Assembly (NCBI GenBank): GCA_021295955.1
Contig: JAGWBJ010000005.1
Span: forward strand, 106,597-170,596
Direction: 5' to 3'
DNA: 64,000 nt
From: Dehalococcoidia bacterium
GTDB taxonomy: Bacteria; Chloroflexota; Dehalococcoidia; Lucifugimonadales; JAGWBF01
Part shown: positions 39,848 to 48,102 of the stretch, piece after piece
How positions within the stretch are numbered: the first letter of the stretch is position 1
How the letters are laid out: each line of letters opens with the position of its first letter
Program-made: the position numbers and the translations under genes
The notes under the pieces: model-generated
Seen by the model: only the letters and a program-made list of their open reading frames with translations
The model's database searches: none
Told to the model about the DNA's origin: nothing

Positions 39848-39889
39848 TGTCATACTGGATTATGACGATGGTATGAACGGAGTATGACA
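39848..39889. promoter_or_regulatory. Probable operator of the toxin-antitoxin operon
   Basis: Four TATGA half-sites at exact 11-base steps lie just upstream of the antitoxin gene: TCATA (inverted) at 39850, then TATGA at 39861, 39872 and 39883. The outer pair forms a perfect 8-base inverted repeat, TGTCATAC (39848-39855) and GTATGACA (39882-39889). The spacing of one helical turn fits cooperative binding of ribbon-helix-helix dimers, the usual autoregulation mode. Confidence 0.65.
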
Positions 39890-40153
39890 ATGTCCAGGGT
39901 CGCTATTAGCCTTCCCGACGACCTGCTCTTGGCCGTCGAGAAGGAGCGTCGTACACATGGAATAACCAGGAGTGAGCTGTTCCGCCGCGCCGTCACGGCG
40001 TTCCTGCAACGTCAGCGAGAGAGGGAGGCCATCGATGACTACGTGGCAGGATACCGCAATCAGCCGGAGGCCGATGAGGAGTTGGCCTGGCTCAGCAATA
40101 CTTCCCGGGAGGTCATGGCCGCGAACCCGTGGAGCGAGGATGATCGAGGGTGA
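39890..40153 (+). CDS. Ribbon-helix-helix (CopG-type) antitoxin
   Basis: 87-residue protein with an N-terminal RHH DNA-binding motif (SRVAISLPDDLLLAVEKER, ITRSELFRRAVTAFL) and an acidic C-terminal tail (SNTSREVMAANPWSEDDRG) that would wrap the toxin. ATG 39890 is used because GGAG (39879-39882) sits seven bases upstream; ATG 39884 is too close. Its stop overlaps the toxin GTG start (40150-40153), so the pair is translationally coupled. It is expected to repress its own promoter through the phased repeats upstream. Confidence 0.88.
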   Translation: MSRVAISLPDDLLLAVEKERRTHGITRSELFRRAVTAFLQRQREREAIDDYVAGYRNQPEADEELAWLSNTSREVMAANPWSEDDRG

Positions 40154-40467
40154 GGCGAGGAGAGGTGTGGTGGGCCGAGTTCCCCGCTCCGGCGGGGCGG
40201 CGTCCCGTGCTGCTCCTATCCCGCGATGAAGCCTACTCTGTCCGCGAGTTCGTCATCATGTCTCCCCTGACCACCAGGGTCCGTCATATCGCCACCGAGG
40301 TGGAGCTTGGCCCGGAAGACGGACTTGCTCGCTCCTCCGTCGCGAACCTGGACGTCATTATCACGGAGTCCAAAGGGTGTCTCAGGGAACGCATTACGGA
40401 CATTGGCCCTGGGAAGCTCCACGCCGTGGACACGGCGTTGCGCTTCGCCCTGGGCCTTCAGCAATAG
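40150..40467 (+). CDS. mazF: MazF/PemK-family endoribonuclease toxin
   Basis: 105-residue type II toxin: RRGEVWWAEFPAPAGRRPVLLLSRD at the N terminus (trimmed here to its family pattern), IMSPLTTRVRHIATEVELGPEDGL and the LDVIITESKGCLRERITDIGP region. MazF enzymes cut single-stranded mRNA at short motifs. The GTG start at 40150 overlaps the antitoxin stop by four bases. Catalytic Arg and Thr equivalents appear in the PLTTR segment. Length and order (antitoxin first) are standard. Confidence 0.9.
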   Translation: MRRGEVWWAEFPAPAGRRPVLLLSRDEAYSVREFVIMSPLTTRVRHIATEVELGPEDGLARSSVANLDVIITESKGCLRERITDIGPGKLHAVDTALRFALGLQQ

Positions 40468-40523: not shown

Positions 40524-41267
40524 CTACGCCGGTACTGCGGCGCCCAGGCTCTCCAGCAGCTTTCCGTAGCCCTTGATGGGGGTCTTGATGCCCACCTTGC
40601 GGAAAGTCGCCCAGATGGTGGCCTGGTTGGAGGTCACCACCGGCTTGCCGGTGCGCCTCTCCAGCTCATCCACCGCCTCCACCGAGCGCCACGCCGTGCA
40701 GGAGCAGAACAGGACGTCGGCGTCGGGATGGCAGATGCTCGACGCGAAGTCCACGATCACCTCGGGGTCCTGGTCGTTGATGCCCTGGTTGCCCGCCTTG
40801 GAGGCCCAAGGCTCCCCCTCCAAGTTCAGCACCTCGAACCCCTGGGCCGTCATGTAGTCCCTGAGCTTCTGATTGTTCCAATCGGGGTAGGGGGTGGCGA
40901 TGGACAGCTTCTTCGCGCCAAAGAAATGCAGCGCCTCTGTCACGGCGGCGCTGGTGGAGGCGGCAGGCACTCCCGCGGTGCTCTCGATGAGCCGGACCAT
41001 CTCCTCGTCCCAGCCGGGCCCCTTGTAGAAGCTGCCCGTGGTGCACCCGTAGGCGATGGCCTCCACCTTGGCGGTGGACAGGTACTTGGCGGCGGTCTCT
41101 ATGTCGGCGTTCATCACCTCCATGGACTCCCCGCCCTCGGCGTCGTTGGTCGTCCACATGCGGTGGCCGTGGATGGTCACGCCCTCGGGGGCCACCATCT
41201 GGAAGTCCGCTTCGCACGACGTATTCGTAGAGGGCACCATGACACCGATGCGCGTCCGAATGGCCAT
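40524..41267 (-). CDS. Asp/Glu racemase-superfamily enzyme (maleate isomerase/arylmalonate decarboxylase-like)
   Basis: 247 residues with two symmetrical Cys sites: IAYGCTTGSFYKG (first Cys near residue 76) and LFCSCTAWRSVEAVDELE (second near residue 190). The N terminus is TRIGVMVPSTNTSCEADF, and NQATIWATFR follows late. This pattern is that of maleate cis-trans isomerases and arylmalonate decarboxylases. ATG 41267 has GGAGG upstream; the frame is open further but crosses a dispersed repeat. The acid substrate is unknown. Confidence 0.83.
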   Translation of the reverse strand: MAIRTRIGVMVPSTNTSCEADFQMVAPEGVTIHGHRMWTTNDAEGGESMEVMNADIETAAKYLSTAKVEAIAYGCTTGSFYKGPGWDEEMVRLIESTAGVPAASTSAAVTEALHFFGAKKLSIATPYPDWNNQKLRDYMTAQGFEVLNLEGEPWASKAGNQGINDQDPEVIVDFASSICHPDADVLFCSCTAWRSVEAVDELERRTGKPVVTSNQATIWATFRKVGIKTPIKGYGKLLESLGAAVPA

Positions 41268-41340
41268 TGTTCCACCTCCGTTGGCTGAATGGTGGTCCAA
41301 TGATACAACACCGCCAGCCTGGGCGCCATACGCCCGCCAC

Positions 41341-41390
41341 GGGAGGCTCTTGCACAACCGCCATAGGGAGGCTCGTACACAACCGTCATA
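41341..41390. repeat. Imperfect 25-base tandem duplication
   Basis: gggaggctcttgcacaaccg (first 20 bases of the unit, 41341) recurs at 41366 as gggaggctcgtacacaaccg; both continue with a CATA ending and differ at 3 of 25 positions. It directly precedes the dispersed repeat element. Confidence 0.75.
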
Positions 41391-41525
41391 CCCGCGAAAG
41401 CGGGTATCCAAATCCCGGAGATTTGGGCGCGAGCCCATCCAGTCGCCCTCCCAATTCGGCCCACACCTTGAGTTACGCAAGGGTCTCCCCCGGCGCGTGT
41501 CCGACGCACTGGATGGGCGCCCGCC
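41384..41525. repeat. Dispersed palindromic repeat, copy A
   Basis: Starts at CGTCATACCCGCGAAAGCGG and shares a colinear run of about 110 bases with 58731-58860 (TATCCAAATCC, GGCGCGAGC, CATCCAGTC, GAGTTAC and GGTCTCCCC in the same order). A perfect hairpin ATACCCGC-GAAA-GCGGGTAT lies at 41388-41407 with a GNRA loop. A longer inverted pair, GCCCATCCAGT (41433-41443) and ACTGGATGGGC (41508-41518), closes the element. It holds no gene and resembles REP/MITE-type elements. Confidence 0.75.
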
Positions 41526-41532
41526 TCCCATC

Positions 41533-41561
41533 TTGCGGCCTCCCCCACCATAAAGTAAGAT
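41533..41561 (+). promoter_or_regulatory. Promoter for the DHDPS-like operon
   Basis: TTGCGG (41533-41538), 17-base spacer, TAAGAT (41556-41561), placed right after the dispersed repeat. The transcript would start near 41568, about 59 bases before the ATG at 41627. Confidence 0.5.
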
Positions 41562-41626
41562 ACGCCCGACGGTAGACACTCTCAGAGCGGCCGGGCCCTG
41601 TACCGGACCGGGCATTGGAGGAAGCC

Positions 41627-43765: not shown

Positions 43766-43779
43766 TAAGGAGGATGGCA

Positions 43780-44685
43780 ATGGCCGACTACACAGCCTAT
43801 TTCAACGGAGAGTGGATGCCCTATAGCCAGGTAAAGATAAGCCCCGACGACCGGGGGTTTCGCTTGGGAGACGTTATCTACGACGTGGCCCGCACCTTCA
43901 ACGGCAAGAGCTTCCGCATGAAGGACCACATCGACCGCCTGTACCGCTCCCTCAAGTACGTGCGCATCGACGTGGGCATCCCCCCGGAGCAGATGACCGA
44001 GATCAGCGAGGAGGTCATCCGGAAAAACGCGCACCTGAGGGAGGACGTGGGGGACTTCACGGTGACCCAGTTCGTCACCCGCGGCCCCGGCTCATCGGCC
44101 CGAACGGCCGGCCCACCGACGGTCTGCGTCAAGGTCTCCGCCATCGACTTCGCCAGGTACACCAGGTACTACAACGGCGGGCTCCACGGCGTCATACCCA
44201 GGACGCGCAGCTACCCCGTGGACTCCCTGGACCCGAAGATAAAGCACTACAGCCGCATGAACTTCAACATGGCGGACCTGGAGGCGGGCGACGTCGACCC
44301 CGAGTCTTGGCCCATCCTTCTGGACATAGACGGCAACATCACCGAGGGAATCTCCTCCAACCTGTTCATGGTCACCGACGGAGTCCTCCGGTGGCCGGGG
44401 CAGCGCAGCATACTGCAGGGAGTCTCCCAGGGCATGGTGTTCGACCTGGCCCGGCAGCTCGACATTCCCGTGTCCGAGGAGGACCTCCAGCCCTACGACC
44501 TGTACAACGCCGACGAGGCCTTCTTCACCAGCACGAGCCTCTGCGTGCTCCCGTGCACCATGGTGGACCGGCGCACCATCGGGGACGGCAAGCCCGGGCC
44601 CGTCACCAAGCAGCTCCTGGCCGCCTGGAGCGAGTCCGTGGGGCTGGACATCGTCGACCAGGCCGTGCGCTTCAGCCGGGGCTAG
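43780..44685 (+). CDS. Class IV aminotransferase (branched-chain/D-amino-acid type)
   Basis: 301-residue PLP enzyme of fold type IV: DYTAYFNGEWMPYSQVKISP, DRGFRLGDVIYDVARTFNG, the PLP Lys in PKIKHYSRMNFNMADLEA, NITEGISSNLFMV and EAFFTSTSLCVLP. It could act on branched-chain, D-amino or (R)-amine substrates; the motif detail is not enough to choose. ATG 43780 fits AAGGAGG (43767-43773); ATG 43774 overlaps that site. Last gene of the DHDPS-like operon. Its stop shares CTAG (44682-44685) with the opposing crotonase gene. Confidence 0.87.
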   Translation: MADYTAYFNGEWMPYSQVKISPDDRGFRLGDVIYDVARTFNGKSFRMKDHIDRLYRSLKYVRIDVGIPPEQMTEISEEVIRKNAHLREDVGDFTVTQFVTRGPGSSARTAGPPTVCVKVSAIDFARYTRYYNGGLHGVIPRTRSYPVDSLDPKIKHYSRMNFNMADLEAGDVDPESWPILLDIDGNITEGISSNLFMVTDGVLRWPGQRSILQGVSQGMVFDLARQLDIPVSEEDLQPYDLYNADEAFFTSTSLCVLPCTMVDRRTIGDGKPGPVTKQLLAAWSESVGLDIVDQAVRFSRG

Positions 44686-45476
44686 CTTCCCCGTCTCAGC
44701 TCCTGCTGCACCGCGGCAAGGCCCTCCACAGCCAAGCCGTACCCCAGGTAGTCCTGGAGCATCCTCTTCAGGTGCATGGTCAGCGCCACGCGGGTGTACC
44801 GCAGGTTCAACGTAGGCTGCTTGGCAAGCTGCTCGGCCAGCTCCCACGCCCGGGGCAGCAGCTTGTCCGGCGGCAGCACCTCGCTTACCAGGCCCAGGTC
44901 CAGCGCCTGGCTGGCGTCGATCTCCTGGCCCGTGAGGAGGAAGTACCTGCCGCGGTTCCAGCCCATGAGCAGGGGAAAGACTATGTGCACCCCGTCGGCC
45001 GACGGTATGCCCCGGGGAAAGTGCCCCCCGTCCTGGAATACCGTTCCCTCGTCCGCCAGGACTATGTCGCACAGCAGGGGAATCTCCGAGTGCACCCGGG
45101 CCGAGCCGTTGACGGCGCTGATCACCGGCACCTCGATGTCCAGCAGGTTCATGAGCAGCCTCTTGCCTTCCCAGTAGGTCTTGTCCCACAGCTCGTGAAC
45201 GTCCCACTCCCGGTCCGAGTCCTCAGGCGGCATGGCCCAGGGAGGCTTCGGCCCCGGCCCCCGGGCGATGAAGGCGTCTCCGGTGCCGGTCAGTATGACG
45301 ACCTTGTTCTCGGGATCGCTGCCGATGTCGGCGAAGGCGTATCCCACCTCCCGGTGAGGAATCTCGGCCCAGACCATGCTCTGCCCGCCGGTGTGGAGGG
45401 TGGCCTGCAGGATGCCGTCCCGCCGCTCCATCCGGACCGTCTCATATTTGTTCGCGTACTCCTCGAACCTCTTCAT
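44682..45476 (-). CDS. 6-oxocamphor-hydrolase-like crotonase
   Basis: 264-residue crotonase-superfamily protein. The usual CoA-type GGG pocket is absent; the region reads AVNGSARVHSEIPLLCD. Instead it matches 6-oxocamphor hydrolase, a retro-Claisen enzyme cleaving cyclic beta-diketones. Landmarks are FEEYANKYETVR, NKVVILTGTG, VFQDGGHFPRGI, GWNRGRYFLLTGQE and LLPRAWELA. As I recall the catalytic residues (W40, H45, H122, H145, D154, E244), the counterparts here are W36, H41, H129, H152, D161 and E251, with constant offsets. A CoA hydratase role is less likely. It has a strong promoter at 45539-45567. Confidence 0.8.
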   Translation of the reverse strand: MKRFEEYANKYETVRMERRDGILQATLHTGGQSMVWAEIPHREVGYAFADIGSDPENKVVILTGTGDAFIARGPGPKPPWAMPPEDSDREWDVHELWDKTYWEGKRLLMNLLDIEVPVISAVNGSARVHSEIPLLCDIVLADEGTVFQDGGHFPRGIPSADGVHIVFPLLMGWNRGRYFLLTGQEIDASQALDLGLVSEVLPPDKLLPRAWELAEQLAKQPTLNLRYTRVALTMHLKRMLQDYLGYGLAVEGLAAVQQELRRGS

Positions 45477-45538
45477 TGTCCGCCACCTCGTCTCTTGCTG
45501 CTGCCGGGCCCGAACAGCCGTTCCGGCCGAACGGGGCC

Positions 45539-45567
45539 ATTCTACGGTGGGGCCGAATCACCGTCAA
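45539..45567 (-). promoter_or_regulatory. Promoter for the 6-oxocamphor-hydrolase-like gene
   Basis: Minus strand TTGACG (45567-45562), 17-base spacer, TAGAAT (45544-45539). The transcript would start near 45532, about 56 bases before the ATG at 45476. Confidence 0.65.
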
Positions 45568-45669: not shown

Positions 45670-45699
45670 TTGACGCTGCCCGAAGGGTGCAACTAAAAT
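45670..45699 (+). promoter_or_regulatory. Promoter for the molybdopterin hydroxylase gene
   Basis: TTGACG (45670-45675), 18-base spacer, TAAAAT (45694-45699). The transcript would start near 45706, about 84 bases before the ATG. A small hairpin AGCCCG-TATAC-CGGGCT lies just upstream (45649-45665). Together with the opposing promoter this fills most of the 313-base gap between the two genes. Confidence 0.65.
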
Positions 45700-45789: not shown

Positions 45790-48102
45790 ATGGACTCCAA
45801 CATCGTTCTGGCTACCAAGGAGTACAACGTCGTGGGCACCAGGCCCATACGCCACGATGGCACGGACAAGGTCACGGGGCGGGCCCAGTACGGCGACGAC
45901 ATACACCTGCCGGGACTCCTCTACGGGAAGGTCCTGCGGAGTCCCTACTCCCACGCGCGCATCAAGTCCATCGACGCCACCCGGGCGCTGGCCCACCCGG
46001 AGGTCCGGGCCGTCGTCACTGCCGCAGACTTTCCCCAGCCCCTGGGCCTCGCTGAGGACCTGGCCGAGGGGGCGATGCAGAACCCCCTGTTCACCAGCAA
46101 CAACACCCTGGCCACGGACAAGGCCCTGTACAAGGGCCACGCCATAGCCGCCGTGGCCGCCACCAGCCCCCACGTCGCCGAGGAAGCCCTCTCCCTCATC
46201 GACGTGGAGTACGAGGTCCTGCCGCCCGTGATGGACGCCGTCGAAGCGTTGAAGGACGACGCGCCCGTCCTCCACGAGCGCCTTGCCACCATAGCGAGCT
46301 TCTCCACCAGGGCCGGGGGCCTGCGCAGGGAGGACGACCAGGGCAAGTCCAGCAATCTGGCCAACCGCTTCACCGTCGAGATCGGAGACCTGGAGCAGGG
46401 CTTCAGCGACGCCGACGTCGTGGTGGAGAGGGAGTTCAAGACCGAGGCGGTGCACCAGGGTTACATCGAACCTCATAGCGCCACCGCCCACTGGGGCGCC
46501 GACGGCAGGATCACCATCTGGTGCAGCTCCCAGGGGCACTTCGGGGCCCGGGACACGGTGGCCAGCATCCTGGCCATCCCCGTGTCCAGCATACGGGTGA
46601 TCCCCATGGAGATCGGGGGCGGGTTCGGCGGCAAGCTGACCTACTACCTGGAGCCGGTGGCCGCCGTGCTCTCCAAGAAGACCGGGCGTCCCGTGAAGCT
46701 GACCATGAGCCGGACCGAGGTGTTCGAGGGCACGGGCCCGACCTCGGGAGGGTACATCAGGGTCAAGGTCGGGGTCACGAAGGACGGCCGCATGACCGCC
46801 GCCGATAGCCAGCTCCTGTACGACGCCGGCGCCTTTCCCGGGTCCCCGGCCAGCGGCGGCGCCGCCTGCGTGTACGGCTGCTACGACATCCCCAACGCCC
46901 GTGTGGAGGGCCTGGACGTGGTCACCAACAGGCCAAAGGTCGCCGCCTACCGCGCTCCCGGGGTCCCCGCGGCTACCTTTGGCTTCGAGCAGGTCCTGGA
47001 CGAGATATGCAAGAAGCTGGATATGGACCCGCTGGAGTTCAGGCTCCTGAACGCGTCCAAAGAGGGCACCCGCCAGGTGACCGGCCCCAGGTTCGGCAGG
47101 ATCGGGTGCGTGGAGACCGTGCAGGCCGCCAAGGACCACGATCACTACTCGGCGCCCCTGGAAGGGCCCAACCGGGGAAGGGGAGTCGCCGGCGGCTTCT
47201 GGCGCAACAACACCGGCGCCTCCAGCGCCACGGCCGCCGTCAACGCCGACGGCACCGTGAGCCTGGTGGAGGGCTCGGCGGACATCGGGGGCACCCGGGC
47301 CGTGTCCGCCCAGCAATGCGCCGAGGTGCTGGGGATCCCCGCCGAGGACGTGCATCCCATGGTCGGCGACACGGACTCCATCGGCTACACCTCCAACACG
47401 GGAGGCAGCGGCGTGGCCTTCAAGACGGGTTGGGCCTGCTACCAGGCGGCCCACGACGTGCGCCGTCAGATGATCGACCGGGCCGCCACCATCTGGGACG
47501 TGTCCCCCGAGGACGTGGACTACGCCGACGGCGCCATCTTCCACAAGTCCGACTCGGAGCTCCGCTTCACCTTCAAGGAGCTGGCGCGCAGGCTCAACGG
47601 CACCGGCGGGCCCATCACCGGCCGGGCCAACGTGGAGCCCGGCGGCGTCGGGGCCGCCTTCGCCATCCACATAGTGGACGTGGAGGTCGACCCGGACACG
47701 GGCAAGGTGGACATTCTGCGCTATACGGCCCTGCAGGACGTGGGCAAGGCGGTGCATCCCAGCTACGTGGAGGGCCAGATCCAGGGCGGCGTCTCCCAGG
47801 GCGTGGGCTGGGCCCTCAACGAGGAGTACTTCTACAACGACAAGGGGGAGATGGCCAACTCCAGCTTCCTGGACTACCGCATGCCCACCAGCCTGGACCT
47901 CCCCATGATCGACACCGTCATAGTGGAGGTTGCCAACCCCGGCCACCCATACGGGGTCCGGGGAGTGGGAGAGTGCCCCATCGTTCCGCCCATGGCAGCC
48001 GTCGCCAACGCCATCCACAACGCGGTGGGCGTCCGGATGAACAACCTCCCCATGTCCCCCGGCAACGTCCTGGAGGCACTGTGGGAGAAGCAGGCCCGGT
48101 AG
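45790..48102 (+). CDS. Xanthine dehydrogenase/aldehyde oxidase family molybdopterin large subunit
   Basis: 770-residue molybdenum hydroxylase catalytic subunit. Residues 1-120 form the hammerhead-type domain (GRAQYGDDIHLPGLLYGKVLRSPYSHARI trimmed). The cofactor-binding region has IGGGFGGKLTYY and YRAPGVPAATFGFEQ, and the active-site Glu is in GVRGVGECPIVPP near the C terminus. FAD and 2Fe-2S subunits, which normally accompany it, are absent on both sides, so partners must be encoded elsewhere or it works alone. The substrate (purine, aldehyde or CoA ester) is unknown. ATG 45790 has GGAGGTGA upstream. Confidence 0.9.
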   Translation: MDSNIVLATKEYNVVGTRPIRHDGTDKVTGRAQYGDDIHLPGLLYGKVLRSPYSHARIKSIDATRALAHPEVRAVVTAADFPQPLGLAEDLAEGAMQNPLFTSNNTLATDKALYKGHAIAAVAATSPHVAEEALSLIDVEYEVLPPVMDAVEALKDDAPVLHERLATIASFSTRAGGLRREDDQGKSSNLANRFTVEIGDLEQGFSDADVVVEREFKTEAVHQGYIEPHSATAHWGADGRITIWCSSQGHFGARDTVASILAIPVSSIRVIPMEIGGGFGGKLTYYLEPVAAVLSKKTGRPVKLTMSRTEVFEGTGPTSGGYIRVKVGVTKDGRMTAADSQLLYDAGAFPGSPASGGAACVYGCYDIPNARVEGLDVVTNRPKVAAYRAPGVPAATFGFEQVLDEICKKLDMDPLEFRLLNASKEGTRQVTGPRFGRIGCVETVQAAKDHDHYSAPLEGPNRGRGVAGGFWRNNTGASSATAAVNADGTVSLVEGSADIGGTRAVSAQQCAEVLGIPAEDVHPMVGDTDSIGYTSNTGGSGVAFKTGWACYQAAHDVRRQMIDRAATIWDVSPEDVDYADGAIFHKSDSELRFTFKELARRLNGTGGPITGRANVEPGGVGAAFAIHIVDVEVDPDTGKVDILRYTALQDVGKAVHPSYVEGQIQGGVSQGVGWALNEEYFYNDKGEMANSSFLDYRMPTSLDLPMIDTVIVEVANPGHPYGVRGVGECPIVPPMAAVANAIHNAVGVRMNNLPMSPGNVLEALWEKQAR

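Follow-up and report, generated by a model that had tools for sequence, protein, structure and literature searches.

Which reaction does the 264-aa open frame P0002 catalyse, and on which substrate? The frame lies on the minus strand of a stretch of 64,000 nt (the window) from a Dehalococcoidia genome. An earlier note on this DNA had read it as a retro-Claisen enzyme resembling 6-oxocamphor hydrolase (OCH). The codon-position GC of P0002 (0.67/0.41/0.90) is like that of the neighbouring genes and represents normal coding statistics. The gene was further said to have a private strong promoter opposite a molybdenum hydroxylase gene. The divergent hydroxylase gene is real, and a sigma-70-like element matching the consensus at 10 of 12 positions was found upstream of P0002 in a 1.5 kb scan (two sites in all, 0.1 expected from shuffles). 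With a convergent gene on one side and a divergent one on the other, P0002 has no neighbour in its own direction, which makes "private" plausible; "strong" is without support. All features are summarized in Table 1.

Table 1. Features of the P0002 locus in window coordinates. Residue counts refer to the alignment of 125 family sequences described in the text.
Feature	Position	Strand	Remark
P0002, OCH/ABDH-family crotonase-fold beta-diketone hydrolase (predicted), 264 aa	44682..45476	-	sequence and model comparison
Shine-Dalgarno-like GAGGTGG, ends 6 nt 5' of P0002 ATG	45483..45489	-	read from sequence
Sigma-70-like promoter TTGACG-17-TAGAAT, 10/12	45539..45567	-	consensus match only
Divergent sigma-70-like promoter TTGACG-18-TAAAAT, molybdenum-hydroxylase gene	45670..45699	+	consensus match only
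Xanthine-dehydrogenase-type molybdopterin-binding subunit, divergent neighbour	45790..48102	+	ATG 45790 after GGAGG
Class IV aminotransferase, convergent, 4-nt overlap with P0002 gene end	43774..44685	+	context only
Trp36 codon (OCH Trp40)	45369..45371	-	W 106/125, F 12/125 including ABDH
His41 codon (OCH His45)	45354..45356	-	H 122/125
Lid loop, residues 67-96	45189..45278	-	stretch 66-97 is 32 residues vs 21 in OCH
His129 codon (OCH His122), replaces Gly of CoA-type crotonases	45090..45092	-	H 125/125
His152 codon (OCH His145), base of His/Asp dyad	45021..45023	-	H 125/125
Ser159 codon (TCG)	45000..45002	-	Pro in other 124 sequences
Asp161 codon (OCH Asp154)	44994..44996	-	D 125/125
Glu251 codon (OCH Glu244)	44724..44726	-	E 125/125

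By sequence, P0002 is clearly nearer to OCH and ABDH than to CoA-type crotonases. Using phmmer against PDB sequences, the top score belongs to the beta-diketone hydrolase of Anabaena (ABDH, alr4455; 2j5g, also 2j5s) with 271 bits (E 1.2e-79). OCH of Rhodococcus sp. NCIMB 9784 (1o8u) follows with 263 bits (E 3.5e-77), and the next sequence is EchA15 (3qk8) with 82 bits (E 3.2e-22). After OCH and ABDH, mycobacterial EchA15-type crotonases (3qk8, 3q1t) rank among the closest solved structures both by sequence and by fold. The identity of P0002 and OCH amounts to 52% over 253 columns. Pfam matches P0002 with ECH_1 alone, and none of the NCBIfam models, CoA-type models included, reaches its cut-off.

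The structure of P0002 was predicted with AlphaFold2 on the basis of 75 family sequences. The model has a mean pLDDT of 92.9, and low confidence is confined to the loop around residues 71-90 (pLDDT 54-65). Superposition with VIA-align yields Z 39.2 and an rmsd of 1.2 A over 248 residues for OCH and Z 38.1 for ABDH, while the best other entry reaches Z 31.0. Foldseek likewise returns 1o8u (E 3.1e-33). The predicted crotonase fold hence matches that of OCH and ABDH. The earlier note had proposed alignment and structure prediction against OCH as a check, and both bear out the likeness.

The same holds for the active site. Trp36, His41, His129, His152, Asp161 and Glu251 had been named at constant offsets to OCH, and the alignment to 1o8u confirms all six: W36=W40 and H41=H45 at -4, H129=H122, H152=H145, D161=D154 and E251=E244 at +7. 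OCH numbers are those of the 1o8u chain, whose first aligned residue is 8. As a control of this numbering, the His122Ala mutant entry of OCH (1szo) differs at the residue paired with H129. Thus His45, His122, His145, Asp154 and Glu244 of OCH are all present in P0002 and Trp40 is kept as well. ABDH has the same His/His/His/Asp/Glu set, but Phe at the position of Trp36. P0002 H41/H152/D161/E251 align with H43/H144/D153/E243, the catalytic residues of ABDH named in excerpts of PMC3584854.

EchA15 shares H41, H152, D161 and E251 with P0002, so that the distinction depends on Trp36 and, most of all, on His129. At the latter position EchA15 has Gly, in a loop that is one residue longer. In the alignment to EchA15, P0002 does not show the Gly-rich CoA/oxyanion loop after the conserved Asn-Gly. 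This agrees with a putative loss of the usual CoA/oxyanion Gly loop, and the lost CoA glycine pocket of the earlier note is consistent with it. Judged from the superposition of the model on OCH and ABDH, the catalytic residues would be clustered, a point on which that note had made its reading depend.

All catalytic residues of OCH being present, the same chemistry is most likely. We assume, with a probability of about 80%, that P0002 is a crotonase-fold hydrolase independent of CoA, which converts a cyclic beta-diketone to a keto acid through retro-Claisen ring opening. The cleavage of cyclic beta-diketones, also expected in the earlier note, appears likely from the OCH/ABDH-type fold combined with the complete catalytic set. 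In this scheme Trp36 and His129 would hold the two carbonyls of the substrate. Close to Glu251 and His41, the His152/Asp161 dyad would activate a water molecule for attack on one of these carbonyls. The C-C bond linking this carbonyl to the central carbon of the diketone would break, and protonation of the enolate would yield the keto acid. Structure work on OCH and ABDH is reported to assign water activation to the H145/D154 dyad of OCH and the holding of the carbonyls to Trp40 and His122. In this way a bicyclic 1,3-diketone is reportedly split at a C-C bond, resulting in a chiral keto acid. The OCH/ABDH-type family is small, and its members are valued as biocatalysts for splitting prochiral diketones. 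CurH, a curcuminoid hydrolase of Rhodococcus sp. no. 34 (J Biol Chem 2024, cited in PMC12981152), is a beta-diketone hydrolase by title and is likened to P0002 by name only.

Conservation was evaluated in an alignment of 125 family sequences, from which L020, L041, L091 and L095 were left out. SAR202 sequences were collected without peptide patterns, and 40 distinct ones of at least 200 residues were kept from L104-L163. H129, D149, H152, D161, E251 and G124 are invariant (125/125), whereby conservation near the catalytic Asp is favoured by selection since 80 loci were found by two peptide patterns, one of them around this residue. Family membership of L094 and L095, both remote, is uncertain. 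L010 (G001:C36), from the same family as the window genome, was excluded from the alignments owing to one in-frame TGA. This OCH-like copy seemingly has no His129 equivalent in its readable part and is either a pseudogene or an assembly error.

P0002 itself shows two peculiarities. It is the sole sequence with Ser at position 159, two residues before the catalytic Asp161, where the other 124 carry Pro. The following residue is Ala160 (Ala in 6/125, Gly in 118/125), such that Ser159-Ala160 stands in place of Pro152-Gly153 of OCH. Moreover the stretch 66-97 comprises 32 residues compared to 20-23 in 99 of the 125 sequences, and the lid loop exceeds that of OCH by 11 residues. Based on Ser159 and the long lid loop of low confidence, activity or substrate of P0002 could differ. 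One might go further and regard P0002 as a former diketone hydrolase whose activity has changed or vanished, also in view of its long terminal branch (0.51 in the 124-row tree, see below). We consider this unlikely. The catalytic residues are kept throughout, and the frame is intact and preceded by a ribosome-binding-like site and a promoter-like element. Stretches of 34 residues are found in seven other members. In columns conserved to 80%, P0002 deviates at 4 sites, which equals the family median, and hence it does not look decayed.

The position of P0002 in the family was addressed by quick trees with SH-aLRT support and no bootstrap. In a tree of 85 rows (omitting L020, L041, L091 and L035) OCH belongs to a clade of 7 rows (SH-aLRT 99) and ABDH to a cyanobacterial clade of 5 (support 99), with P0002 outside both. 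Instead P0002 groups with a paralogue of its own genome (63% identical) and 25 other rows in an uncharacterised clade (support 93). To our knowledge no member of this clade has been assayed so far. In a tree of 124 rows including the SAR202 sequences (omitting L020, L041, L091, L095 and L094) P0002 is a lone branch in the SAR202-rich half and again apart from OCH, its exact place not being fixed. P0002 is thus found within the OCH-holding clade in neither tree. Neither OCH nor ABDH is its orthologue, and ABDH scores as high as OCH. P0002 is a member of an already known enzyme family, in an uncharacterised branch that is large. The paralogue (L096:9998-11077) is located near a cyclase-family gene and SnoaL-like genes, recognised by eye, and near a second molybdenum-hydroxylase gene, which is divergent and accompanied by an AAA ATPase.

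Gene neighbourhoods separate P0002 from OCH as well. The P0002 gene is surrounded by genes for an arylmalonate-decarboxylase-like protein, a DHDPS-like protein, an amidohydrolase, an aminotransferase IV, the molybdenum hydroxylase and an aldo/keto reductase. P450 and acyl-CoA degradation genes as at OCH-clade loci were not found among the neighbours in the window. Loci of the OCH clade exhibit an AMP-ligase in 5/6, an acyl-CoA dehydrogenase in 4/6 and a P450 in 2/6 cases, compared to 2/26, 2/26 and 1/26 for the clade of P0002 (raw ORFs with shadow frames included, some loci truncated, families checked on examples). Moreover a search of the window genome alone (88% complete) detected no P450.

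These data bear on whether P0002 could be an OCH orthologue serving the degradation of camphor or another monoterpene. It shares 52% identity and the same six residues with OCH, Trp36 included. In addition the window genome encodes 48 luciferase-like flavin monooxygenases, the family to which diketocamphane monooxygenases belong according to excerpts of PMC5395668. Nevertheless P0002 lies outside the OCH clade and differs in its lid loop, the AMP-ligase, acyl-CoA dehydrogenase and P450 genes are absent around it and rare in its clade, and P450 is undetected in the genome, making such a role very improbable. A terpenoid or camphor pathway was rejected on the grounds of the missing P450 (one genome searched) and the missing OCH-clade neighbours. 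The terpenoid origin of the substrate considered in the earlier note consequently lacks support: P0002 belongs to neither the OCH nor the ABDH clade, P450 is undetected, and OCH-clade neighbours are rare in its own clade. Least probable of all is that P0002 is an enoyl-CoA hydratase/isomerase of the CoA-dependent crotonase type and was mistaken for a diketone hydrolase. This would explain the four residues common to EchA15 and the sole Pfam match ECH_1, but conflicts with the ~180 bits by which OCH/ABDH outscore the nearest other chain, the structural gap (Z 39/38 vs 31), the family-invariant His129 in place of Gly in EchA15 and the failure of all CoA-type NCBIfam models to reach their cut-off.

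For P0002 as a predicted diketone hydrolase, the altered lid and the change from Pro-Gly to Ser-Ala argue for a substrate unlike those of OCH and ABDH. The substrate is probably not 6-oxocamphor. A cyclic 1,3-diketone derived from SAR202 oxidation of alicyclic dissolved organic matter is a conjectural candidate.

Further loci were inspected for conserved partners of the gene. The set comprises 42 loci including the window, with one place of G559 present twice (L115, L138) and only short flanks at four loci. Homologues of the DHDPS, amidohydrolase, aminotransferase and aldo/keto reductase genes were found at 0/41 other loci of the SAR202 order at the cut-offs used. An operon DHDPS-amidohydrolase-aminotransferase together with the aldo/keto reductase was therefore rejected as partner of P0002. 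A molybdenum-hydroxylase homologue is located near the OCH-like gene at 3/42 loci including the window. Its molybdopterin-binding subunit family has 7 copies in the window genome and 8-18 in each of seven other genomes (E 1e-60). This copy number would give roughly as many linkages by chance (estimated from copy number, not simulated), and the linkage was rejected as a pathway clue. At L138 the nearby homologue shares 59% identity, and the top match of that genome, at 73%, is located elsewhere. Some homologues in the searched genomes are 70-74% identical to the subunit of the window. As its neighbours are not conserved at other family loci, the neighbourhood of P0002 names no substrate or pathway.

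Two further genes of the window deserve mention. At 39884-40467 a small gene, ribbon-helix-helix-like by eye, precedes a toxin gene that is PemK/MazF-like according to Pfam; the two are a probable type II toxin-antitoxin pair. The arylmalonate-decarboxylase / EutA-like protein at 40524-41615 does not reach the curated cut-off of either NCBIfam model, and its called start seems ~110 residues too far upstream.

Two arrangements recur at other loci. A luciferase-like (FMN) monooxygenase gene is found directly upstream on the same strand at 6/41 loci of the SAR202 order other than the window, 35-354 bp 5' of the OCH-like gene (L140, L141, L143, L109, L116, L156; luciferase-like identity Pfam-checked for two of six). 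In five of the six the identity to the query is 68 to 100%, and the pairing in these is therefore probably one inherited arrangement. No such gene was found directly upstream of P0002 in the window. The linkage is a lead only, the density of such genes having been measured in the window genome alone. A PAC2-family gene is located 3' on the same strand at 14/42 loci (L140-L150, L163, L116, L137), and the order monooxygenase - OCH - PAC2 is seen in L116, L140, L141 and L143. The OCH-PAC2 region also holds trpS and dnaK (recognised by eye), a setting which looks like vertical inheritance. The OCH-like gene is placed there as if it were a core gene; these loci come from a subset of one SAR202-order family, described below.

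The window genome comprises 2.56 Mb on 30 contigs at 88% completeness and 7% contamination. Its Chloroflexota affiliation, proposed in the earlier note, is right. The host and SAR202 cluster bacterium Io17-Chloro-G4 share one order: a stretch of G558, a genome of this order, is identical to that named record in 3112/3112 sampled 31-mers. By the same approach G192 (class) corresponds to Chloroflexi isolate COS3_bin_3 and G001 (family) to Dehalococcoidia isolate 277c_27. The 48 luciferase-like monooxygenase genes of the window genome resemble the FMNO expansion in SAR202 described in excerpts of PMC5395668. Close relatives of P0002 are patchy within the order (46/250 genomes) and occur in 5/393 genomes of the class sample and 2/400 of the phylum sample, its own genome counted in each case. 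One family of the order, in turn, has an OCH-like gene near-universally, in 43/50 genomes and in 15/18 among the good ones.

According to excerpts of PMC5395668, the published SAR202 model opens rings by Baeyer-Villiger monooxygenases, and diketocamphane monooxygenases are discussed there. Searched for "crotonase" and "diketone", the SAR202 genome papers PMC5395668 and PMC6946804 returned no match. The presence in 43/50 genomes together with the occasional upstream FMN monooxygenase suggests hydrolytic ring opening beside the Baeyer-Villiger chemistry of SAR202. As a rather doubtful extension, OCH-family hydrolases of SAR202 might constitute a second, oxygen-independent route of alicyclic ring opening once an FMN monooxygenase or a dehydrogenase has made the 1,3-diketone, with lid and Pro-to-Ser change adapting P0002 to a substrate outside the known range of the family. 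The wider interest is that one SAR202 family so steadily retains this hydrolytic ring-opening type of enzyme, which, by cleaving C-C bonds, would add a ring-opening step to the attack of the abundant SAR202 on long-lived carbon.
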